The translations under genes were made by a program, and so were the position numbers. A stretch of 42,277 nt of DNA, from positions 1 through 42,277 of the forward strand of contig REDL01000033.1 in NCBI GenBank assembly GCA_007693505.1. The letters run 5' to 3'. How positions within the stretch are numbered: position 1 is the first letter of the stretch; every line of letters starts with the position of its first letter. Of this stretch, positions 29,421 through 42,089 are shown in pieces. This stretch comes from Desulfovibrionales bacterium (lineage in GTDB: Bacteria; Desulfobacterota; Desulfovibrionia; Desulfovibrionales; Desulfonatronaceae). A model generated the notes under the pieces. That model did not search any database and was not told the origin of the DNA. It saw only the letters and a program-made list of their open reading frames with translations.

Positions 29421-29463
29421 CCTCTGACTTCTGTCTTCTGTCATCTGCCCTCTGCCCTCTGCC
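29421..29463. repeat. Low-complexity purine/pyrimidine tandem repeat
   Basis: The plus strand is a run of CTCTGCC and TTCTGTC units (about seven degenerate copies). It covers the last codons and stop of the NupP-like permease and the short spacer before the NupQ-like start. On the transcribed strand it is GGCAGAGG- and GACAGAA-rich, and so includes ribosome-site-like stretches. Confidence 0.65.
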
Positions 29464-30523
29464 CCGGCCATTCCAGCCGCAACCGGTAATAATGAAAAAA
29501 CTGACCAGCCAGCACGGTCAGCAGCACAAGCCCTTCCAGAATGTGGCCAAAGGCCGCCGGAACCCGCAGTTCCAGCTGAAGGACCTCCACGCCCACCCGC
29601 AGCCCGGCCAGCAGAAATGCCGCCAGGGCCATGGGGCCGATCTTCAGCCGGGCTACCCAGGCCACGACAATGGCCGTATATCCGTAACCAACCAGGATAC
29701 TCGGCTGCAGGCGATGCGCCACGGCCGAGGTTTCCACGAACCCGGCCCAGCCGGCCAGCATGCCGCAGATGCCCATGACCAGAAACACCAGGAATCCATA
29801 GGGCATAAAGGCATATCGGGCCGTGCGCAGACTCTCGCCACTGGCCCGGATTTCATACCCCAGCCGGGTCTTGTTCAAAAAAAGCCAGGCAAGAACACTG
29901 AGAACCACACACAATACCAAACCCCAATGCAACCGGGTTCCGCCAAGCATTCCGATCTGGGCCGCCGCTGGATACTCCATGGTCATGGGAAACCCCCGCC
30001 CACCTGGATCTCTCCAGGGGCCATAGACCAGATAGTTCAGCAGCAGGATCCCGATGTAGTTGAGCATCAGCGTGGAGATGATCTCGTTCACCCCCAGGCG
30101 GACCTTGGTCAGGGCCGGAATCAAGGCCCAAAACGCTCCGGCCGCGCCGGCGCTGAGCATCATCAGGGGCAACAGGGCCACGGCAGACAGGTGCGGAAAC
30201 GTCAGGACGGCCCAGGCCGCGCCGATGGCCCCCAGGGCGAATTGGCCTTCGGCCCCGATGTTCCAGATCTGCATTCGGAAGGTGAAGGATACCCCCAGGG
30301 CGCAGAGGTAGATGGGAATGGCCTTGCGCAGGGAGTCTTCCAGGGACCAAACGCTTCCGAATCCGCCCTCCCAGAGCAGGGCCAAGGCCCGCAACGGCGC
30401 CACGCCCTGCACGGCCAAGGCCGCGCAGGCCAAAGACAGGGACAGCCCCAAGGCCGCACAAAAAACAAGGACCGAACCCCATCCCAGGGGTTCGGTCCTT
30501 TTGGTGACACGAATCAGGCGCAT
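29441..30523 (-). CDS. Nucleoside-type ABC transporter permease (NupP-like)
   Basis: A 360-residue polytopic permease, larger than its partner as usual in NupP/NupQ pairs. Hallmarks: RMQIWNIGAEGQFALGAIGA near residue 83 and VRLGVNEIISTLMLNYIG near 145 in part, with the coupling loop LGYEIRASGESLRTARYA. Codons 8-20 form a perfect 14-bp hairpin followed by a T-rich run on the coding strand (see 30461-30500), which may limit transcription. The last few codons lie in a low-complexity repeat. Confidence 0.92.
   Translation of the reverse strand: MRLIRVTKRTEPLGWGSVLVFCAALGLSLSLACAALAVQGVAPLRALALLWEGGFGSVWSLEDSLRKAIPIYLCALGVSFTFRMQIWNIGAEGQFALGAIGAAWAVLTFPHLSAVALLPLMMLSAGAAGAFWALIPALTKVRLGVNEIISTLMLNYIGILLLNYLVYGPWRDPGGRGFPMTMEYPAAAQIGMLGGTRLHWGLVLCVVLSVLAWLFLNKTRLGYEIRASGESLRTARYAFMPYGFLVFLVMGICGMLAGWAGFVETSAVAHRLQPSILVGYGYTAIVVAWVARLKIGPMALAAFLLAGLRVGVEVLQLELRVPAAFGHILEGLVLLTVLAGQFFHYYRLRLEWPGQRAEGR
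30461..30500 (-). terminator. Terminator-like hairpin inside the permease coding start
   Basis: On the minus strand AAGGACCGAACCCC (30500-30487) pairs perfectly with GGGGTTCGGTCCTT (30480-30467) across a six-base loop, directly followed by GTTTTTTG. This has the form of an intrinsic terminator, yet it lies within the first 60 coding bases of the permease. It could act as an attenuator lowering permease and ATPase levels relative to the binding protein. Confidence 0.65.
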
Positions 30524-30559
30524 GCCGTCAACAGGGTGTTGAATTTCAGCAACGCCGTA

Positions 30560-31633
30560 CTACCGTGTGGCGCCTACAACGCCCTGGACAAACCAATCCA
30601 TGGCCAACATTTCTTCATCCGTGGCGCGAACCCCCTCGGGAATCCGGACTTCGCCCTGCTGGTCCAGTACCGGCCCAATGAAGACATCCGTCTCACCGGA
30701 GCGAATCTCCTCTTTTTTGGCCAGGACCGCTTCCTGGATGTCCTGAGGAACCATGGGGCCGAACGGCGCCAACCCCACCAACTCCCGATCCAGTCCCCAC
30801 CAAATGGACTCGCTGGCCCAGGTTCCATCCTTCACCTGCTGAACCACATCCTTGTAGACCACGGACCAGTTCCAGATCGGAGCCGTCAAATGGGCGTCCG
30901 GAGCAAAGGCGCTCATGTCCGTATTGTAGCCGATGGAGTAGACACCGCGCTCCTGAGCCGCCACCTGGGGACCGGGCGAATCCTGGTGCATGGCGATCAC
31001 ATCCGCGCCCACGTCCAGCAGGCTGTTGGCCGCCTCTTTTTCCAGGGCCGGATCGTACCAGGTGGAACTCCAGACCACACGGACCTGAACGTCCGGATTT
31101 ACGGCTTGAGCGCCCAGGGTAAACGCGTTGATCCCGCGAATGACTTCCGGAATGGGGAAGGCGGCCACGTATCCCAGGATATTGGATTCGGTCATGGCCC
31201 CGGCAACCATGCCGGAAAGATAGCGCGGCTGGTACATCCGGCCGAAGTAGGTCCCCACGTTCTCGGCCAACTTGTAGCCGGAACAGTGCATGAAGACCAC
31301 ATCCGGAAATTGAGCCGCAACCTTGATCACCGAGTCCATGAACCCAAAGCTGGTGGCAAAGATCAGATTGTGTCCCCGCCGGGCCATGTTCAACAGGACT
31401 CGCTCCGAATCCGGCCCCTCGGACACGGATTCCACAAAGGTGGTCTCCACGCCGTCCAGAGCCTCGATGGCCCGGCGTCCGTCATCATGGGCCCGAGACC
31501 ATCCCGCATCGCCCACTGGCGAAACATAGATGAACCCGGCCTTGATCTCCTTGGCCGCCACGGCCACCGGCACCATCATCAGGGCCAGCACCGCCAAACC
31601 CGCGACCAACATGCTCAACACGCCTCGCTTCAT
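30560..31633 (-). CDS. BMP-family nucleoside-binding protein of ABC transporter
   Basis: A 357-residue periplasmic binding protein of the basic membrane protein (BMP/PnrA) family. Residues 1-27 are a signal peptide ending VAVAA without a lipobox cysteine. The mature part begins KEIKAGFIYVSPVGDAGWS, and NLIFATSFGFMDSVI and DVVFMHCSGYK are family hallmarks. Homologues bind purine nucleosides or bases. The start at 31633 follows GGAGG about nine bases upstream; the frame runs open a further 15 codons. It lies 41 bases downstream of the xanthine phosphoribosyltransferase gene, which supports purine uptake. Confidence 0.9.
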   Translation of the reverse strand: MKRGVLSMLVAGLAVLALMMVPVAVAAKEIKAGFIYVSPVGDAGWSRAHDDGRRAIEALDGVETTFVESVSEGPDSERVLLNMARRGHNLIFATSFGFMDSVIKVAAQFPDVVFMHCSGYKLAENVGTYFGRMYQPRYLSGMVAGAMTESNILGYVAAFPIPEVIRGINAFTLGAQAVNPDVQVRVVWSSTWYDPALEKEAANSLLDVGADVIAMHQDSPGPQVAAQERGVYSIGYNTDMSAFAPDAHLTAPIWNWSVVYKDVVQQVKDGTWASESIWWGLDRELVGLAPFGPMVPQDIQEAVLAKKEEIRSGETDVFIGPVLDQQGEVRIPEGVRATDEEMLAMDWFVQGVVGATR

Positions 31634-31674
31634 GCTCGCATCCTCCGGATAAACGTTAGAATGACAAAAATGGT

Positions 31675-32175
31675 TCACAATGACGTACCACCCCGCTGAT
31701 CCGCCAACGGCTCGACGAATCGGGCCTCTGAATCCCAGGGAAAAAGTATCCAGGTGTCCTGACTGACTTCAGTGATGTACGTGTCCACCATCGGCCGCCC
31801 AGCCGGCTTGGCATAGACCGTGGCAAAATGCGCTTGCGGCAGCATCTCCCGGACAACCTGTGCGGTTCGCCCTGTGTCCACCAGATCGTCGATGATCAGG
31901 GTCTTGGCCGCAACATCCGGGGAAAGGGGCTGAAAGCTTTTGAGCACCCGGCTTTGCCCTTGGTCCTGCCATGCATAGCTGGACACACAGACCGTATCGA
32001 TGACCCGAATTTCCAGTTCCCTGGCAATAATCGCCGCAGGCACCAGCCCGCCGCGGGTGATGGTCACGATGCCATGCCACGGTCCCAAATCCAGTAGCCG
32101 CCACGCCAAAACTTTGGAGTCGCGGTGCAGTTGATCCCAGGAAATGGGGTAGAGCTTGTTGTACCGGTCTTTCAT
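31675..32175 (-). CDS. gpt: Xanthine-guanine phosphoribosyltransferase
   Basis: A 166-residue enzyme converting xanthine, guanine or hypoxanthine and PRPP to nucleotides. The PRPP-binding loop is [14 protein letters not shown], and [16 protein letters not shown] and [23 protein letters not shown] match E. coli Gpt closely along the whole length. The ATG at 32175 is preferred over a TTG at 32211, although the ribosome site is weak. Placed first in an operon with a BMP-type importer, it probably traps imported purine bases. Confidence 0.92.
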
Positions 32176-32265
32176 GCTGATGTATGTTGAGGGTTCAATG
32201 CTCGTGGGCAAATGTCCGGAAGTATCCGTCTGGCCGCGGCCCAGTCGCCGGGGAATGTGGCAAGG

Positions 32266-33008: not shown

Positions 33009-33102
33009 GGCCGTTATCCTTGTCCAAAGCCCACCTGAAGACCGGCACGGCCATCATCTGACGGGCCGCGACGAATGGCCCATGATTGCCGTGGAAACAC
33101 AT

Positions 33103-33327
33103 ACCAGTCCGTTGAAAAACTCCCAATTGCTGTGTCGCTGCAAAAATTTCAAACTCTCACGTATGAATCAATACGCTTCGACCTTGATTCGATTGCCAGG
33201 ACAGCAAATCGAAAATGTGGCGAAGCCACAGCCCGTGAGGGCCGGACACAGGACGTGTCCGGTAGCTTTTTTTGCTCCGTGCACTTGGAGTTTTTGAACG
33301 GACTGCCAGATGAAGGACTTTTTCAAC
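33103..33327 (+). repeat. Dispersed inverted-end repeat, copy D (long form)
   Basis: The best example of the long form. The left end CAGTCCGTTGAAAAACTCCC continuing to 33129 is the inverted match of 33282-33305 (ending TTTTTGAACGGACTG). Inside are three perfect hairpins: CGTAT/ATACG at 33160-33175, GTGGC/GCCAC at 33217-33229 and CCGGACAC/GTGTCCGG at 33242-33262. A further GGACTTTTTCAAC lies beyond the right end. Confidence 0.9.
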
Positions 33328-33330
33328 ACT

Positions 33331-34026
33331 CAGATACCCTCAAAAGCATCTCTGGAAGGCCGTGCGCATCTGGAGGCAAACCGGTTCTGGCCGCAACCTG
33401 GTTGTGTGCTCTCGGCGCAGCCCAAAACATAATCAGGACATGCTCATCCCGGCGAATCCTCGTAACCGGATCAGCGTCGAAAGGCAATGACGCTTGATGA
33501 AGTGCCCAGGGCATTTTTGTTCTGTAATTGCTCAAAAAGGCCGGGCAAACTCTGAAATTATCTCTGTCCCTGGATTCCCGCCTGCGCGGGAATGACTGAA
33601 AATGGCATGTGCTTCCAAGCTCATCATGCCCGCGAAGGCGGGCATCCAGGTCATGCTTGCCACAAGTTTTTGAGAAGTTACTTCGCTCTAACGTAACCAT
33701 ATGAAATTTTTGAGGCTGACTTGCCCTTTTTGGGACGGATCGACCGGCTGCGCCTGTTTGATTGAACCAGGAATCGTTCATCAAGCCGTTGCCCAGCGCC
33801 ACGAGCACAAGCCTCTGTTTTTATAACGCTACGGCTTGATGTTACGAGGCCGGTGAAGGAGTTTTGAGCCGTTCCAAACAGGGCAAGCCAGCCGTCTTTG
33901 CAAGAAAAAATTGGTGAGAACAACATTGCCCTGTGGGCACCTCATTGAGGCATTGCGTTTCCGCCCTGTTTGGTGTCTTCTGGCGCACATCCTTTCCGTC
34001 TAACCCCGCCATCCCCTGACAGCCTA
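33331..34026. other. Gene-poor spacer upstream of the membrane aminopropyltransferase-like gene
   Basis: About 700 bases without a convincing gene. Short minus-strand frames exist, but they run through the repeat at 33526-33680 and have no family features. The stretch may hold decayed mobile DNA. The promoter of the downstream gene should lie here, but none is obvious. Confidence 0.45.
33526..33680 (+). repeat. Second dispersed repeat family, copy 1
   Basis: It runs from TTGCTCAAAAAGGCCGGG to CAAGTTTTTGAGAAGTTA and contains two strong hairpins, ATTCCCGC/GCGGGAAT and GCCCGC/GCGGGC. The reverse complement of nearly the whole unit recurs at 41841-42016. The ends TTGCTCAAAAA and TTTTTGAGAAG are themselves roughly inverted. 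Confidence 0.85.
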
Positions 34027-36654
34027 ATGTCCCCGTTCCGCGCCGTTCCCTGGCACCTTGCGTCCGTCCTGATGCTGGGCCTTGTTTCCCAGCTGGCCCA
34101 GGTCCTGTTGTTGCGGGAACTGCTCATGGTCTTTCAGGGCAACGAACTTTCCATTGGAATCATTCTTTCCGCCTGGCTGGCCTGGACCGGCCTGGGAAGC
34201 TGGCTGGGAGGGCGCCTGGCGCAGCAGCGGCGCCGCACCGGCAGGCTCTTGTTCTCCAGCGCCGCCGGCCTGGTTCCCCTCCTGCCGGCGACCATTGGCC
34301 TGATCCGAAATCTGCGCGATTTTTTCGACGTCCTGCCCGGAGCCGCCCTGGGACTGTGGGAGATGGTCCTTTCCAGCTTTCTGGTCATGGCCCCGGTCGG
34401 GCTGCTGCTTGGTGCGCAGTTTGTTCTGCTGGCCAGGATCTGGCGGGAACATGACGGGACTCGGGATGCCTCCGGGGCGAGCAAGACCTACATGGTGGAG
34501 GCCGCCGGCAACATCATTGCCGGCATCCTGTTCACCTTTCTCCTGGTCCACCTGTTCAACGCCTTTCAGACGGCAACCCTGGCGGCACTGCTCATGGCGG
34601 CGGTTGCCCTGCCCCTGGGGCGGATGCAGGTCAACACCAAGCCGGGCCGGGATCCCCTGCGACGCGCTCCAGTCGTCGCGATCCTGCTTGCCCCGCTGGC
34701 ACTTGCGGTACTTGCCGGGCTGTTCCTGGCCCTGGACCGCTTGGACAAGTGGACCTCCCTGATCCAGTGGGGGCAGTTCGCCCCGGATCATGAGCTGGTG
34801 GAGACCCGCCATTCCCGGCACGGCGCGATAGCCGTACTGCGCCGCGACGACCAGTACAGTTTTTTTCAAAGCGGTCACCTGGTTTTCAGCACCGCGGGGC
34901 GGGAAACGGCCGTACCCGGCCTGGAGGAACAAGATGCCGTCACCGTGGCCCACCTTGCACTGACGCAGCACCCTGAACCCAGGCGCGTGCTGCTCATCGG
35001 CGGAGGTTTGCGGGGCATGCTCACCGAGATCCTCCGCCACCCGGTCCAGGAACTGGACTATGTGGAACTGGACCATGTGCTGACCGCCACGGCCCTGAAC
35101 TTCGCCCCGGCCCGAACCCTTGCGGCCCTGGACCATCCCGGCGTCCGGCTGCTGCATACGGACGCCCGGCTTTTCGTCAAGTCCGGTGGGACGCGAAGCT
35201 ACGACATGATCATCGTGGACGCCCCGGACCCAACCACAGCTGTCCTGAACCGGACATACACCCGGGAGTTCTTTCAGCAGGCCCAGAGCAGACTTGCTCC
35301 GGGCGGGGTGCTGGTGGTGGGGGTCGCATCAACTCCGGATTTGCGGGGGCTTGCGGTAACCAACCGCAACGCCGCGATCTTTCATACCCTGGGAAATGTC
35401 TTTGATCAGGTTCTCGCCGTGGGCGAACGGCACCTGCTACTCTTTGCCACGGATGCTCCGGACCAGGTGACCACGGATCCCCAGGTCCTGCGGGCACGTT
35501 TTGACCAACGGGAAATCCAGGCCGAGGGATTCTCCAGCCTGCATTTTCATATCCTGTTGCATGAACCAACCGTGCGCCGGATCAACTGGATTCTGCGCCA
35601 TCACGGCCGAAATCATCTGGCCCATCTGGAAGGGCCTCCTGCCCCACCCCTGTCGCCTCCTTCCATCGGCGAACAGCTGCAGGCTGAAGAGTCTCTGCCT
35701 CCGGTGGTTCAGCGCTTCTTCATCAATTCGGATTTCCGACCCATCGCCTACCTGTACAGCCTGATGTTCTGGGATGAGCTGACCAGGGTCGGCACCAGAG
35801 ACTCCCTGACATGGGTGCTTCGGATACAACCCTGGTGGCTTCTTCCCGTGCTTCTGGGACCGCTTCTGGTCGTGCTGGCGCTCTCCCGTCTGCCCCCCCG
35901 CAACCACGAACGCCCCGGAGTGCGCACCAAATGCGGTTTGCCAAAAAACCGCTTCCTCAGCTTCCGAAACTGCTCCTGGTATCCATCCTGGCCTGGCCCG
36001 TACTCCGGCATGACCACTGCCGTGCACCTCGCGGCATTGACCACCGGAATGTCCACCATGTTGATGCAAGTGGCCTTGCTCTTCGCTTTTCAGAGCTTAT
36101 ATGGGTTTATATACGAGGCTGTGGGGCTGATCATCGCCGTGTTCATGTCCGGCCTGGCCGTGGGCACCTTTCTGGGGCACCGCCATGTACGTCATCGCCC
36201 CGGCCATGGCCCGGGCCAGACCCAGGGCCAGACCCTGGGCCGGTCCCTGGCCATGGTCCAGTTCGGTATCGCCGCGGCGGCCTGGATAGTTGGGCTGGTC
36301 TTGCCCCAGGCCGCAACGATCGCCTCGCCCTTGGTTGTTTTGGCCTTGTTTTTCATTTTGACCTTTGCCGCCGGACTGGCCGGGGGCGTGGACTTTCCCC
36401 TGGCACTTGCCTGCTCCACGACCCTTTGCGGCAAGCCGGAACAGGCCGCGGGCCGGATCTACGGTATCGAACTGGCCGGTGCCTGTGTTGGTGCGGCCGT
36501 GGCAGGAGTGATGATTGCCCCGGTTCTGGGCATCCCGGCCTGCTTCCTGCTGGCCGGAGTCTTGAACGCCATGGCCGGGCTTGCCCTGCTGACGGCATTT
36601 GCCAAAGGCTCGCCCGTCGGTCTCACATCCTCACCAGCCGTGCGGCACTCTTGA
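34027..36654 (+). CDS. Polytopic membrane protein with spermidine-synthase-like domain
   Basis: An 875-residue protein. The N-terminal third has about six hydrophobic segments, then a soluble domain (about 250-500) resembling polyamine aminopropyltransferases, then a further set of hydrophobic segments. The soluble domain has VLLIGGGLRG for SAM or decarboxylated-SAM binding, ELDYVELDHV, and YDMIIVDAPDP followed by YTREFF, as in SpeE. No SpeD gene is nearby, so polyamine synthesis is uncertain; it may be a methyltransferase-like or non-canonical enzyme. The ATG at 34027 has a weak ribosome site and the frame is open to 33970. It is followed 32 bases later by a radical SAM gene. Confidence 0.85.
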   Translation: MSPFRAVPWHLASVLMLGLVSQLAQVLLLRELLMVFQGNELSIGIILSAWLAWTGLGSWLGGRLAQQRRRTGRLLFSSAAGLVPLLPATIGLIRNLRDFFDVLPGAALGLWEMVLSSFLVMAPVGLLLGAQFVLLARIWREHDGTRDASGASKTYMVEAAGNIIAGILFTFLLVHLFNAFQTATLAALLMAAVALPLGRMQVNTKPGRDPLRRAPVVAILLAPLALAVLAGLFLALDRLDKWTSLIQWGQFAPDHELVETRHSRHGAIAVLRRDDQYSFFQSGHLVFSTAGRETAVPGLEEQDAVTVAHLALTQHPEPRRVLLIGGGLRGMLTEILRHPVQELDYVELDHVLTATALNFAPARTLAALDHPGVRLLHTDARLFVKSGGTRSYDMIIVDAPDPTTAVLNRTYTREFFQQAQSRLAPGGVLVVGVASTPDLRGLAVTNRNAAIFHTLGNVFDQVLAVGERHLLLFATDAPDQVTTDPQVLRARFDQREIQAEGFSSLHFHILLHEPTVRRINWILRHHGRNHLAHLEGPPAPPLSPPSIGEQLQAEESLPPVVQRFFINSDFRPIAYLYSLMFWDELTRVGTRDSLTWVLRIQPWWLLPVLLGPLLVVLALSRLPPRNHERPGVRTKCGLPKNRFLSFRNCSWYPSWPGPYSGMTTAVHLAALTTGMSTMLMQVALLFAFQSLYGFIYEAVGLIIAVFMSGLAVGTFLGHRHVRHRPGHGPGQTQGQTLGRSLAMVQFGIAAAAWIVGLVLPQAATIASPLVVLALFFILTFAAGLAGGVDFPLALACSTTLCGKPEQAAGRIYGIELAGACVGAAVAGVMIAPVLGIPACFLLAGVLNAMAGLALLTAFAKGSPVGLTSSPAVRHS

Positions 36655-36686
36655 TGCAAACATGCGACCTCCAACGGAGTTCCTCC

Positions 36687-37874
36687 ATGCAGCACACTTC
36701 CCCAGCATCGACAACGTCCCCGCCACTGAACAGAAAACAGTTCCTGAAGGCAGCAGCTTGCGGGCTCTGCGCGCCATCCCTGGCCACCATGCTCGCGTCA
36801 CCCAGACAAGCTCAAGCCCAGGCCGGCGGCGCCGCATCCCAGACTGCCCAGCGGGGTCTCGTCCAGCCCCATCCCTCGCCCTGGTTCAGCCCGGTTGACG
36901 GCAATGCCGTCCAATGCGGACTCTGCCCTCGGCAATGCATCCTGGCTCCAGGCCAGCGATCCCCTTGCCGGGCTCGGGAAAACCGTTCCGGACAAGGCGT
37001 CTCGCTGACCTACGCCAATCCGGCCCTGATCCAGGAAGACCCGGTGGAACGCAAACCGTTTTTCCACGTCGTGCCGGGCAGTCGGGCCCTTTCCGTTTCC
37101 ACAGCCGGCTGCAACCTGCACTGCAAATTCTGCGAAGTCTGGGACATGGCCCTGGTCCGTCCCGAAGACGTTCATGCCTACGACCTGCCACCAGAGGCCG
37201 TGGTGGCTCATGCCCAGGCCGCCGGACTGCGTTCCGTGAGCTTTGCCTTTGGGGAGCCGGTCATCTTTTATGAGTACATGCTGGATGTCGCCAGGCTGGC
37301 CCGAAACGCCGGGATGCTCAACCTGCTGCATACCGCGGCCTACATCCGTCCCGAGCCGTTGCAGGAGCTCTGCGAGGTGATCGACGCGGCCAACGTGGAC
37401 CTGAAAGGCTTTGATCCGGCGTTTTACCGGGAGGTGGTCGGCGGGGAATTGCAGCCGGTGCTGGACGCCCTGCGGATCATCAAACGCTCCGGGGTCCACC
37501 TGGAACTGACCAGCGTGGTCATCCCCACGCTCAACGACGACATGAACGCCTTGGCCGAGATGTGTCGGTGGATCGCCGGCGAGCTGGGGCCGGACACCCC
37601 CCTGCACCTGGCCCGCTTCTACCCCCTGTACCGCCTCTCCGCCCTGCCCCGCACCCCGGTTTCCATTCTGGACCAGGCCCGGGAAACCGCCCAAAATGCC
37701 GGACTGCGCTTTGTCTACGTGGCCAAGGTTCCCGGCCATGACGGCGAAAACACCTTCTGCCCGGACTGCGGTCAGGCAGTCATCACCCGGGTGGGATTCA
37801 TCGTGGACCAGATGCGGGTCGACAGTGGCCGTTGTCCAGACTGTCAGCGCGAGATCCCGGGCATCTGGAGCTAA
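36687..37874 (+). CDS. AmrS-like radical SAM protein with Tat-like signal
   Basis: A 395-residue radical SAM protein of the PflA-related AmmeMemoRadiSam type. The N-terminus has NRKQFLK (an RK variant of the Tat motif), a hydrophobic stretch, and ASPRQAQAQA, a plausible cleavage site. Next come an accessory cysteine set C77, C80, C84 and C94 (CGLCPRQC), the radical SAM motif CNLHCKFC (C142, C146, C149), and a C-terminal zinc-type set C358/C361 and C383/C386. The start at 36687 has GGAG seven bases upstream; ATG 36654 overlapping the previous stop is the alternative. Memo and AMMECR1 genes are not adjacent. Confidence 0.88.
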   Translation: MQHTSPASTTSPPLNRKQFLKAAACGLCAPSLATMLASPRQAQAQAGGAASQTAQRGLVQPHPSPWFSPVDGNAVQCGLCPRQCILAPGQRSPCRARENRSGQGVSLTYANPALIQEDPVERKPFFHVVPGSRALSVSTAGCNLHCKFCEVWDMALVRPEDVHAYDLPPEAVVAHAQAAGLRSVSFAFGEPVIFYEYMLDVARLARNAGMLNLLHTAAYIRPEPLQELCEVIDAANVDLKGFDPAFYREVVGGELQPVLDALRIIKRSGVHLELTSVVIPTLNDDMNALAEMCRWIAGELGPDTPLHLARFYPLYRLSALPRTPVSILDQARETAQNAGLRFVYVAKVPGHDGENTFCPDCGQAVITRVGFIVDQMRVDSGRCPDCQREIPGIWS

Positions 37875-37903
37875 GAAAGGCCCCGGTCCAGCCCTCGTCC
37901 ACC

Positions 37904-37949
37904 AAAAGAGAACGCCCGCCTGGTCGCAACCAGGCGGGCGTTCTCTTTT
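37904..37949 (+). terminator. Strong intrinsic terminator after the AmrS-like gene
   Basis: A perfect 21-bp stem begins AAAAGAGAACGCCCGCC, has loop CGCA (37925-37928), and its second arm ends TTCTCTTTT. T-runs exist on both strands, so it can work in both directions, ending the plus-strand operon and insulating the convergent gene at 38192. Confidence 0.92.
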
Positions 37950-37971
37950 GATCAAAGCCTGACTGATAGTA

Positions 37972-38194
37972 ATGAAAAAATCCCTATCCACAGTCCGTTC
38001 AAAAATCCCAAGTGCAAGGAGCAATTAAAGCTACCGGACACGTCCTGTGTCCGGCCCTCACGGGCTGTGGCCTGGCCACATTTACGATTTGCCGTCCTGG
38101 CAATCGAATCAAGGTCGAAGCGTATTGATTCATACGTGAGAGTTTGAACTTTTTGCAGCGACGGAGCAATTGGGAGTTTTTCAACGGACAGCTA
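37972..38194 (-). repeat. Dispersed inverted-end repeat, copy E (long form)
   Basis: A minus-strand copy. It begins at TAGCTGTCCGTTGAAAAACT, where the TAG is the stop codon of the PflX-like gene, and ends with TGTGGATAGGGATTTTTTC. All three hairpins of copy D are present; the GTGGC hairpin has changed its loop bases from GAA to CAG and kept its stem. Confidence 0.88.
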
Positions 38195-39247
38195 GAGCAT
38201 CCGCCGATGGATTTCCAGGTTGGCCAGCGAGCGCGTATCCAGGTTGGTCAGCCCGGCCGCCATGGCCCATTCCATGGCTTCTACGTATTCCTGGGAGGTG
38301 ATGGCCCGGGCAATGGGCTGGTAGTCAAAGGCCATGTGCTCCACCCGATATTGGGACATGATGTTCACGTAGGTGTCCCGGGGCAGGTTGGCCGCCATCC
38401 AATCCACGAACTCCCTGGTACCGGACACCTGGTTGGGCATGACCAGGTGACGGATCATCAACCCCCGCCGGGCAATCGAGTCGCCGGAGACGACCGTGTC
38501 TCCCACCTGGCGGTGCATTTCCAGAATGGCGGCCTTGGCCGTATACGGATAATCCCCCCGGCCCTTGATCACATACCTGGCTGACTCCTCCGGGCTCATG
38601 AACTTGAGGTCCGGCAGATAAATGTCCACAACGCCATCCAGCAGGCGGATGCTGTCCAGGCTGTCGTAGCCCCCTGTATTGTAGCACAGGGGCAGATGCA
38701 GGCCCTGCTGGTGCGCAATGCGCACGGCCCCGAGTATGTTGGGCAGAAAATGCGTGGGGGTGACCACATTGATATTCTGGCAGCCCCGGCGCTGCAGATC
38801 CAGCATCACGTCCGCCAACCGGGCGTCGTCCACCTCTCGGCCGTGGCCCAGGTGGGCAATGGGCCAGTTCTGGCAGAACACGCAACGCAGATTGCAATGG
38901 GAAAAGAAAATGGTCCCGGAACCGCCACGGCCAACCAGGGGCAATTCCTCGCCGTAATGCGGTCCGTGGCTGTGGACCACGGCCCGCGCACCGGCCTCGC
39001 AAAACCCCTTCTCCCCACGAAGCCGGTTCACCCCGCAGCCATGGGGGCAGATGTCGCAGGATTCCAGCCGGGCATAGGCCTGCTCAATGCGCCCGGCCAG
39101 GAGCCCGGCCTCTTCCAATTCAGCATAGGCCGGTCGCCACCCGTCCTTGGGAAAACCTGTATCCAGGGCGTTGGCACACCCCGCGGTGAACAGGGAACCG
39201 GCGGTAACAGCCATTCCCTGTAAAAATTGCCTGCGTGTCGTGGCCAT
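38192..39247 (-). CDS. PflX-like radical SAM protein with twin-arginine signal
   Basis: A 351-residue radical SAM protein of the PflX/COG1313 group related to pyruvate formate-lyase activases. The N-terminus MATTRRQFLQGMAVTAGSLF is a textbook Tat signal (Arg5-Arg6), with a possible weak lipobox TAGC before Cys24. Then follow an accessory set C64, C67, C71, C83, the cluster motif C118, C122, C125 (CNLRCVFC), and PTHFLPNIL and YNTGGYDS, family hallmarks. The start at 39247 has GGAGG six bases upstream. Its stop codon is formed by the edge of repeat copy E. Substrate unknown. Confidence 0.88.
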   Translation of the reverse strand: MATTRRQFLQGMAVTAGSLFTAGCANALDTGFPKDGWRPAYAELEEAGLLAGRIEQAYARLESCDICPHGCGVNRLRGEKGFCEAGARAVVHSHGPHYGEELPLVGRGGSGTIFFSHCNLRCVFCQNWPIAHLGHGREVDDARLADVMLDLQRRGCQNINVVTPTHFLPNILGAVRIAHQQGLHLPLCYNTGGYDSLDSIRLLDGVVDIYLPDLKFMSPEESARYVIKGRGDYPYTAKAAILEMHRQVGDTVVSGDSIARRGLMIRHLVMPNQVSGTREFVDWMAANLPRDTYVNIMSQYRVEHMAFDYQPIARAITSQEYVEAMEWAMAAGLTNLDTRSLANLEIHRRML

Positions 39248-39424: not shown

Positions 39425-40345
39425 CTACTGAAAAAGATGGGGTTGCCCGGTAACCTTGCGGACAAGCTCCCGATAGTCCTGGGCTCCCTTGGCGCCGGGA
39501 GCATACTCGTAAATGGTTTTCCCATACATGGGGGCCTGGGAAATCACGTTGTTGTATCGAATGGGTTCACAAAGCTTGTCCTTGTACAGGGATTCCAGCT
39601 TCTCCAGAATGGTTTCTGATTTCTTTTTGACCCGCATGTCCATGAAGTTGGGAACAATATATTTGATGTTCAGACCAGCGTGATACTTCTTGATCGCTCC
39701 CAAATTCTTGAAAAAAGACCCCAGGGCCTGGATCGTCATGATCTCCAGGGAAACCGGGACCAGCAGCTCGTTGATATAAAACAAGACATTCACCGTCAGG
39801 GCGTCCCACCCCGGTGATGTATCCACAATCACGAAATCATACCGGCCATCAATGCCGGCGAGCGTTTCCGAAAGCGTATGTTCGGCTCCAAAGTCCTTGC
39901 GGTCGATCATCCGTTTCACGCCGGCCAGCGACTTGCCGCCCGCCAGGAGCCAGAGATTCTCCCGCGCCTGGAACAGGGCCTCTTCGACCCGCAGCTCCTG
40001 GGTCATCAGCTCGGCCAGCCCGCCTGGTGGTTTGACGCCGAGCATGTATGCGGCCTGACCCTGGGTATCCGTGTCCACAAGCAGCACCTTGTACCCGGCC
40101 AAAGCGCAACCAGCCGCCAGATTCACCGCGGTCGTCGTCTTGCCGACCCCGCCCTTGCTCAGGGAAACACCGATTTTTCTTGTTTTCTGTTCAGACTCTT
40201 GGATTGAGTTCTCGGTTGGATTCTTGCTTTTTTCGTACTGAAAGCTGTTGCCACAGGAAGAACAGCGCAGCCGCACGGGATGATCAGGAATGAGGTTTTC
40301 ATCGAGGCGCAGTTTTCGATGGCAATTTGAGCATTCGATAATCAT
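39425..40345 (-). CDS. ParA/MinD-family ATPase with N-terminal zinc ribbon
   Basis: A 306-residue protein. Residues 5-31 hold CSNC...CSSC, a zinc ribbon of the MJ0042 type usually found in regulators or membrane proteins. After a charged linker comes the ATPase with deviant Walker A SKGGVGKTTT (63-72) and VLLVDTDTQGQAA. There is no ParB gene adjacent, so it is an orphan ParA, of the type that positions protein complexes rather than plasmids. A start at 40345 has AGGAG seven bases upstream. It follows the PilZ and basic-protein genes, separated by repeat copy F. Confidence 0.87.
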   Translation of the reverse strand: MIIECSNCHRKLRLDENLIPDHPVRLRCSSCGNSFQYEKSKNPTENSIQESEQKTRKIGVSLSKGGVGKTTTAVNLAAGCALAGYKVLLVDTDTQGQAAYMLGVKPPGGLAELMTQELRVEEALFQARENLWLLAGGKSLAGVKRMIDRKDFGAEHTLSETLAGIDGRYDFVIVDTSPGWDALTVNVLFYINELLVPVSLEIMTIQALGSFFKNLGAIKKYHAGLNIKYIVPNFMDMRVKKKSETILEKLESLYKDKLCEPIRYNNVISQAPMYGKTIYEYAPGAKGAQDYRELVRKVTGQPHLFQ

Positions 40346-40433
40346 CAATGAACTCCTTCTTCACGTTCAGACATCATTGGCCTTGATGAACCGGTACCAG
40401 GTTCCCCACGATGAGGAATCACCTATACAGGAC

Positions 40434-40657
40434 TTTGAATAAATCCTTTTCCACAGTCCGTTCAAAAATCCCAAGTGCACGGAGCAAAAAAAGTTACCGG
40501 ACACGTCCTGTGTCCGGCCCTCACGGGCTGTGGCTTCGCCACATTTTCGATTTGCCGTCCTGGCAATCGAATCAAAGTCGAAGCGTATTTATTCATACGC
40601 GAGAGTTTGAACTTTTTGCAGCGACGCAACAATTGGGAGATTTTCAACGGACTGCTA
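40434..40657 (-). repeat. Dispersed inverted-end repeat, copy F (long form)
   Basis: A minus-strand copy. It starts TAGCAGTCCGTTGAAAATCT, where the TAG stops the gene at 40655, and ends GTGGAAAAGGATTTATTC. It contains all three hairpins; the CGTAT hairpin is lengthened by one G-C pair through an A-to-G change relative to copy D. It separates parA from the preceding gene. Confidence 0.88.
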
Positions 40658-41056
40658 GCCCTGACCATCCAAATATTCCTTGAGCTTGCGAGCAAGGATG
40701 CTCTTCTCCCGGTGTTGTTGAAAATCCTTCAAAATGATCTCCAGGGAGATATCCGTGATCCGGGATTTCGAAACCTGCCCGGACTTCTTCGCTTTCAGGA
40801 GTCGCTGACACTCGCGCTTGACGCGATCCAGCGACTCAAAATTTTGGGGCGTGAGGTAGGAACTGCTCCGCTTTTTCGTTTCCCGGCGCTTTCCCTGCTT
40901 GCGCTTTGTTCCTTCCTTGCGGGGCGGCTGGAATGAATCTCGCATTTCATCGATAAACGCCATGAGTTCCAGCAGTTCAGGGTCGTCAACCTGCTCAACA
41001 TCCAGCAGCACATCCTGCAGGACATCCTTGTCGGGCTTGTCGTTATCGGTGGTCAT
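40655..41056 (-). CDS. Basic hypothetical protein
   Basis: A 133-residue protein of no recognised family. The N-terminal 45 residues are acidic with a helical look (VLQDVLLDVEQVDDPELLELMAF); the middle is very basic (RKEGTKRKQGKRRETKKRS); the C-terminal part is again helical and basic. No membrane segment. It lies nine bases after the PilZ gene stop, so the two are an operon. Its TAG stop codon coincides with the edge of repeat copy F, so its end may have been altered by insertion. The basic linker suggests nucleic acid or protein binding, but this is only inference. Confidence 0.62.
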   Translation of the reverse strand: MTTDNDKPDKDVLQDVLLDVEQVDDPELLELMAFIDEMRDSFQPPRKEGTKRKQGKRRETKKRSSSYLTPQNFESLDRVKRECQRLLKAKKSGQVSKSRITDISLEIILKDFQQHREKSILARKLKEYLDGQG

Positions 41057-41509: not shown

Positions 41510-42089
41510 GTTCTCTCCTTTGGTATTCTCCGTGGCATCTGTTTCATGAATCTTTTTCCGGCACCTACATGGCAATGCGTTGATAGGGATGGTTCATTGA
41601 GCGGGTGAAACAGGTTGACACTTTTTGTTGATGGGAAAAAGCGCATCAAGCGTAGGGGCCGCCCTCGCGGCCGCCCTGAGTGGGCGAGGCAGCGAGGTGC
41701 AACGACGCACAAACAATCAATCGTGCCGCCTTGTCGATAGGGACGCAGGGAAGGCGCAAGGCCTGCCCCTACATAGTGCGATCATGTCCACGGTCGACTG
41801 GAACAAGATGCCAGTGTGTCAACCAGTTCTGAACATCCCCATAACTTCTCAAAAACTTGTGGCAAGCATGACCTGGATGCCCGCCTTCGCGGGCATGACA
41901 AGCTTGGAAGCACATGCCACTTTCAGTCATTCCCGCGCAGGCCTGCCTGTGGCAGACAGGTGGGAATCCAGGGACAGAGACAATTTCAGAGTTTACCCGG
42001 CCTTTTTGAGCAATTACCCATTCCCGTTGATAAAGACAGAAAAACTGTCCGATGCACCTGCTTGTTGAAAAAGTCTTCGTTATGATGCG
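41510..42089. other. Repeat-rich spacer between the PilZ operon and the pilin gene
   Basis: 580 bases without a supported gene. It contains a unit bounded by GTAGGGGC (41652-41659) and GCCCCTAC (41765-41772) with an internal GGCCGC/GCGGCC hairpin, a copy of the second repeat family, and a fragment of the first family at 42061-42077. Promoters for the PilZ operon should lie near 41510-41600 but are not distinct. Confidence 0.5.
41841..42016 (-). repeat. Second dispersed repeat family, copy 2 with nested insertion
   Basis: The reverse complement of copy 1 (33526-33680). It is longer because the ATTCCCGC hairpin has gained an inner hairpin, CCTGCCTGTGGCAGACAGG. Otherwise the two copies match closely, including ends and the GCCCGC/GCGGGC hairpin. 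Confidence 0.85.

Follow-up and report, generated by a model that had tools for sequence, protein, structure and literature searches.

Two putatively exported radical SAM proteins beside a spermidine-synthase-like membrane protein: a candidate exported branch of AmmeMemoRadiSam

Introduction

Can radical S-adenosylmethionine (SAM) enzymes act outside the cytoplasm? They are treated as cytoplasmic, because they require SAM and a strong reductant. The question is raised by a stretch of 42,277 nucleotides from a Desulfovibrionales bacterium of the Desulfonatronaceae (GenBank assembly GCA_007693505.1, contig REDL01000033.1, positions 1 to 42,277), the whole of which we call the window. Here two radical SAM proteins, AmrS and a PflX-like protein, have N-termini resembling signals for twin-arginine translocation (Tat), and lie beside a membrane protein with a spermidine-synthase-like domain, which we call MSTM. 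An earlier note, made from the DNA sequence alone, had proposed that radical chemistry might take place in the periplasm or on a membrane-linked substrate. We conclude that the cluster probably, though by no means certainly, belongs to an exported branch of the AmmeMemoRadiSam system, in which Tat-exported AmrS and PflX would perform radical SAM chemistry outside the cytoplasm together with MSTM.

Putative export signals on AmrS and PflX

The genes for MSTM (34027..36654, plus strand; an open frame with a PF01564 domain) and AmrS (36687..37874, plus strand, within the open frame 36651-37874; TIGR04337) nearly overlap on the same strand, and that for PflX (38192..39247, minus strand; recognised by its frame and domain matches) is convergent with AmrS. 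The sequence favours the ATG at 36687 as the start of AmrS, with a GGAG 8 nt before it; an alternative ATG, at 36654, shares a base with the MSTM stop codon, TGA 36652-36654 (TGATG). PflX starts at the ATG at 39247 on the minus strand, preceded by GGAGG.

The N-terminus of PflX, MATTRRQFLQ, is a canonical Tat motif and reaches 16.8 bits with the TAT_signal_seq model (cut-off 16.7). Twin arginines and a hydrophobic stretch, which together characterise Tat substrates, are both present, and the arginine pair recurs in most orthologues. In AmrS, the N-terminal segment NRKQFLKAAACGLCAPSLATMLASPRQAQ (36729..36815, plus strand; delimited by sequence and structure model) joins the motif NRKQFLK to a hydrophobic helix. 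The motif is weaker than that of PflX, having R-K instead of R-R, and in the predicted structure of the 407-residue protein a lone helix (residues 28-48) is followed by a low-confidence linker.

Whichever of the two starts is used, AmrS retains NRKQFLK and its hydrophobic segment. Only one in-frame start was seen downstream of the motif and before the first cysteine, an ATG within that segment that has no ribosome-binding site. Judged by sequence, no sensible alternative start strips the signal from either protein. The Tat-like signals that the earlier note had read in both proteins (TTRRQFLQ and NRKQFLK) are thus real features of the gene products as best called, whose starts do not lie downstream of the signals; for AmrS the segment is Tat-like only in a weaker form, since its motif is R-K, and not R-R, in the window. 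The genome from which the window comes has a TatC gene. A lipobox in the window PflX (FTAGC) was too weak to claim.

Conservation of the signals in both families

The window AmrS scores 328.3 bits with TIGR04337 (cut-off 220), which places it among the radical SAM enzymes of AmmeMemoRadiSam and agrees with the name that it had been given beforehand; AmrS matches occur in 147 of the 149 genomes of the class. Trees were built for AmrS and PflX from cores aligned without the N-terminal segment, so that the signal had no influence on their shape.

The AmrS tree separates 28 cytosolic from 106 exported-branch sequences at a support of 0.995. An RR- or KR-type Tat motif is found in 0/28 AmrS of the cytosolic clade and 71/106 of the exported clade, these being related sequences and not independent trials; the background for the same loose rule is 45 of 558 unrelated neighbouring open reading frames (ORFs). 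The other 35 exported-clade proteins comprise 11 with a Sec-like or transmembrane (TM)-like start, while in the rest the motif is weaker (R-K, for example) or no signal can be recognised, which in some cases is explained by contig edges or uncertain starts. The window protein falls in an 18-member clade (support 0.978), made up of the window group and the AmrS proteins paired with signal-bearing PflX, in which every member carries a signal. When AmrS proteins linked to MSTM were aligned, the first arginine was present in 19/19 and the RR pair in 15/19; the nearest relatives (L170-L172) carry RR. A second AmrS encoded by the same genome (C121) has no signal. In AmrS of the Bacteroidales/Ignavibacteria type (L225, L229, L231-L234, L239, L244), the Tat-like motif has KR instead of RR.

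PflX belongs to its family, which we take to be COG1313, by homology over the full core and by the family cysteine set; a profile search reached no NCBIfam enzyme cut-off. In the PflX tree 31 signal-bearing sequences form one clade and the sequences without a signal form the remainder, apart from one signal call outside the clade (L059) that looks like a start artefact. As with AmrS, a second PflX of the same genome (C74) has no signal. In both families the signal is kept in orthologues and absent from cytosolic paralogues, the check on which the earlier proposal had been made to depend.

Radical SAM residues

Both proteins have the PflA-type architecture ascribed to them earlier, in which C-x2-C-x3-C plus one further cysteine (C89/C92/C96/C106 in AmrS, C66/C69/C73/C85 in PflX) precede the CxxxCxxC motif (C154/C158/C161 and C120/C124/C127, respectively). 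In exported AmrS the CxxxCxxC cysteines and Lys252 are each conserved in 106/106 sequences, Glu202 in 102/106, the extra cysteine set in at least 105/106 and the C-terminal cysteine pairs in at least 102/106. All of these are equally conserved in exported and cytosolic AmrS, and at the level of sequence the catalytic residues of the exported enzymes are intact.

The membrane protein MSTM

The 875-residue protein beside AmrS does contain the spermidine-synthase-like domain noticed earlier (PF01564, E 2.2e-20), and belongs with the fused major facilitator superfamily (MFS)/spermidine synthase proteins of NF037959 (65.4 bits, cut-off 40). Fourteen TM segments are predicted, seven on either side of the domain (residues ~256-590, between TM7 and TM8). 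An AlphaFold2 model from an alignment of 27 sequences (pLDDT 87, pTM 0.88) has the same layout, with seven long helices, a spermidine-synthase fold and seven long helices. On the positive-inside rule the N-terminus is predicted inside and the domain extracytoplasmic, since lysines and arginines number 490 in inside loops and 134 in outside loops, with the same sign in 27/27 proteins.

In structure comparisons the domain is close to the SpeE enzymes 3anx/1uir (Z 29); the membrane part matches the MFS protein AmpG (Z 16, root-mean-square deviation 5.3), a resemblance that is only suggestive. Invariant polar or aromatic residues in the first helices of the family (Gln25, Arg30, Glu31, Glu40, Trp50) resemble a transporter core.

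In SpeE a glutamate and an aspartate bind ribose and adenine, and the aspartates of GGGDG and DxxDP hold the amine substrate. The equivalents of the nucleoside binders are present in 25/27 MSTM proteins each. The first aspartate of DxxDP is found in only 8/27, and that of GGGDG is not among the common residues; the window protein has both DxxDP aspartates but reads GGGLR, with leucine for the GGGDG aspartate. The family also has an invariant region, NR-x-[YF]-T-x-E-F, that is new relative to SpeE. Because the ribose and adenine residues are kept, the amine-holding aspartates lost and a new invariant region present, we read the domain as a putative binder of an adenosyl ligand with changed chemistry. 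A polyamine aminopropyltransferase of the SpeE kind was considered and rejected, as family members do not consistently retain the aspartates that bind the substrate, and the label "aminopropyltransferase-like" in the earlier note finds no support.

Linkage, distribution and partner genes

Three genomes of another family in the class (G136, G079, G134) have the three genes in the same order, with 59-72% identity for both radical SAM proteins, and the nearest loci (L170 and L171, in bins named Syntrophomonadaceae) share the MSTM-AmrS-PflX order and have RR in AmrS. MSTM had no match in the two same-genus genomes searched, which suggests that it was gained by transfer, or lost in same-genus relatives; across the phylum, 278 of 395 genomes have a match. 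The genes co-occur across genomes, as the earlier note had proposed to check, and both links recur: AmrS lies within ~6 kb of 20/40 sampled MSTM homologues in other families (three of the 20 being of the cytosolic branch), and in 10 of the 14 genomes from other families it adjoins signal-bearing PflX, the two genes being either convergent or divergent. A pair that persists while its relative orientation changes is hard to explain other than by shared function. Other recurrent neighbours looked like ordinary housekeeping genes.

Scanning ~85,000 species genomes yielded 80 loci with named organisms, all metagenome-assembled, from Desulfobacterota, Omnitrophota, WOR-3, Planctomycetota, Verrucomicrobia, Lentisphaerae, Acidobacteria, Latescibacterota, KSB1, Bacteroidales, Ignavibacteria and a few archaeal bins; this set leans to the exported type because the query was an exported-type alignment.

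The cluster in the window lacks the Memo and AMMECR1 genes that would complete a three-part AmmeMemoRadiSam system. Many relatives within the same AmrS branch have all three parts, with a Memo-AMMECR1 fusion in the cluster; two of these fusions were scanned, and both exceed the cut-offs for TIGR04336 and TIGR04335. A Sec-like or lipoprotein-like signal is present in 30 of 33 linked Memo-AMMECR1 proteins scored. The signals of AmrS and Memo did not covary significantly (Fisher p 0.17), because nearly all Memo proteins in the set carry a signal.

At five loci in other phyla (L190, L197, L203, L206, L208), a membrane protein with FMN_bind and Fer4_5 domains is encoded directly upstream of AmrS; it is fused to a DsbD_2 region in the first three and lacks one in L206 and L208. 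Two of these proteins were scanned and gave partial matches to NapH, NosR and RnfG. At seven further loci (L177, L209, L210, L215, L217, L222, L238) one gene family adjoins exported AmrS; the two members scanned are DUF362 proteins, and that of L215 has a Tat-like start.

Interpretation of the cluster

An exported AmmeMemoRadiSam branch draws, on the side of sequence, on gene order, signals conserved on separate branches, intact residues, recurrent linkage and signal-bearing Memo-AMMECR1 proteins elsewhere. In the scheme that we infer, AmrS and PflX would fold and acquire their iron-sulphur (Fe-S) clusters in the cytoplasm before Tat exports them in folded form, and would remain on the outer surface of the inner membrane. 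Radical SAM chemistry would proceed there jointly with the outward spermidine-synthase-fold domain of MSTM. By analogy with the linkage in other phyla, electrons may arrive through a NosR/RnfG/NapH-like membrane carrier, and MSTM, with its MFS-like membrane part and kept nucleoside-binding residues, may handle the adenosyl ligand, be it SAM or a product. In the lineage of the window, PflX would fill the place of Memo-AMMECR1 in the cluster. The earlier suggestion of radical chemistry beyond the cytoplasm thus gains support, with export itself still inferred, from pointers that it did not have: signal-bearing Memo-AMMECR1, the predicted outward domain of MSTM and the membrane carriers beside AmrS.

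Several observations weigh against this interpretation. The strongest objection is SAM supply, as we know of no SAM pool or SAM exporter outside the cytoplasm, a difficulty that MSTM could overcome through its MFS-like part. R-K motifs, such as that of the window AmrS, are often poorly handled by Tat, and one relative genome with the cluster (G186) has no TatC match. For roughly one in three AmrS of the exported clade, the N-terminus is Sec- or TM-like, carries a weaker motif or yielded no signal. The window group has no linked, signal-bearing Memo-AMMECR1, and the Memo and AMMECR1 of the window's own genome are single, separate copies on other contigs that have no evident signal and look cytosolic. 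The AmrS beside the carrier has no signal in L206 and L208, and the electron link is only suggestive because these are two of the five carrier-linked cases.

Export need not imply catalysis. AmrS and PflX might be non-catalytic outside the cytoplasm, with roles in Fe-S electron transfer, in metal handling or as structural subunits, which would fit both with SAM not being known to be available there and with the linked Memo fold, which binds metal in its human member according to a review. We regard this as unlikely: had catalysis been lost in this branch, some of these residues should have disappeared, and the radical SAM and auxiliary cysteines, Glu202, Lys252 and C-terminal cysteine pairs are as conserved as in cytosolic AmrS.

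It is less probable still that the N-termini are twin-basic anchors at the inner face of the membrane, and that catalysis stays cytoplasmic, with a membrane-linked substrate. Such an arrangement would keep the enzymes where SAM and reductant are located, and would suit the R-K of the window AmrS and the plain TM-like N-termini of some relatives. It accords poorly with the canonical RR of PflX and of AmrS in L170-L172, with the spermidine-synthase domain of MSTM predicted outside, with the Sec/lipobox-like signals of the Memo-AMMECR1 partner and with FMN_bind/Fer4_5 carriers, which in analogous systems move electrons outward. That the Tat-like segments arose by chance or mis-called starts on ordinary soluble paralogues, as the background of RR/KR-type matches under the loose rule might suggest, is very improbable, being already contradicted by clade-wide conservation, complete absence in cytosolic AmrS and start codons that precede the signals and have ribosome-binding sites.

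Beyond the cluster in the window, a widespread extracytoplasmic system, with Tat-exported enzymes, electrons from membrane flavin/Fe-S proteins and an MSTM that carries SAM through the membrane to its outward nucleoside-binding domain, or returns the products, is a tentative extension of the exported-branch interpretation that we hold to be possible but doubtful.

Burroughs et al. (J Biol Chem, 2019) are reported to have described Memo-AMMECR1 contexts. Our literature search, whose coverage did not extend to the main earlier genomic survey, found no periplasmic, exported or secreted radical SAM enzyme and no exported AmmeMemoRadiSam branch; the titles, abstracts and one passage seen held nothing on point for radical SAM together with a twin-arginine or Tat signal. 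AmmeMemoRadiSam already has a name as a three-gene system, and Memo-AMMECR1 systems are referred to elsewhere (eLife 2020, PMC7159879); for the exported branch no description was found in the literature searched.

If the interpretation is true, a deep exported branch exists in many phyla, SAM and low-potential electrons reach the outer side of the membrane, and radical chemistry outside the cytoplasm is suggested for many anaerobic bacteria. Memo and AMMECR1, which are unexplained, would also become more accessible to genetics, as exported clusters name their partners and the compartment limits what the substrate could be. To our knowledge, the human homologues of these two proteins have no agreed molecular function.

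Other features of the window

In the gap between AmrS and PflX, whose genes are convergent, lies a perfect inverted repeat of ~20 bp with A/T ends (37904..37949; no strand assigned, found by direct reading), which is likely to be a two-way terminator for both. An intergenic element of 204-223 nt occurs in three copies that are 92-94% alike (37973-38195, 40436-40658 and, inverted, 33102-33305), and a second, inverted repeat pair (33580-33680 and 41842-41942) is 97% alike; by their sequence these repeats may be mobile or regulatory. On the minus strand, 29441-32211 encodes a BMP/PnrA-type substrate-binding protein, an ABC-permease-like protein and a phosphoribosyltransferase (domain matches: Bmp, phosphoribosyltransferase), which looks like a purine or nucleoside uptake set. 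A ParA-like ATPase with an N-terminal zinc ribbon is encoded at 39425-40348, with a PilZ-domain gene nearby.

Comparison with known systems

Pyruvate formate-lyase activating enzyme is the closest solved relative of the AmrS model by sequence and fold. It is cytosolic, whereas the window AmrS differs from it by the extra N-terminal cysteine set, the C-terminal cysteine pairs and the signal. PflX has ~50% identity to cytosolic homologues and an identical cysteine pattern, but is a member of a separate Tat-bearing clade paired with AmrS. MSTM resembles NF037959 and SpeE in its model score and domain fold, and differs in the loss of amine-site aspartates, the NR-x-[YF]-T-x-E-F region, its 14 TM segments and a domain predicted outside. 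The FMN_bind/Fer4_5 proteins, which are found in relatives and not in the window, share partial matches with NosR, RnfG and NapH, but stay below the family cut-offs, and some are fused to DsbD_2. AmmeMemoRadiSam itself (TIGR04335/04336/04337; AMMECR1, Memo and radical SAM protein) is matched by an AmrS above the TIGR04337 cut-off and by fused AMMECR1 and Memo at related loci; the branch in the window differs from it in its putative export signals, the link to MSTM, the position of AMMECR1 and Memo outside the cluster, and the presence of PflX instead.

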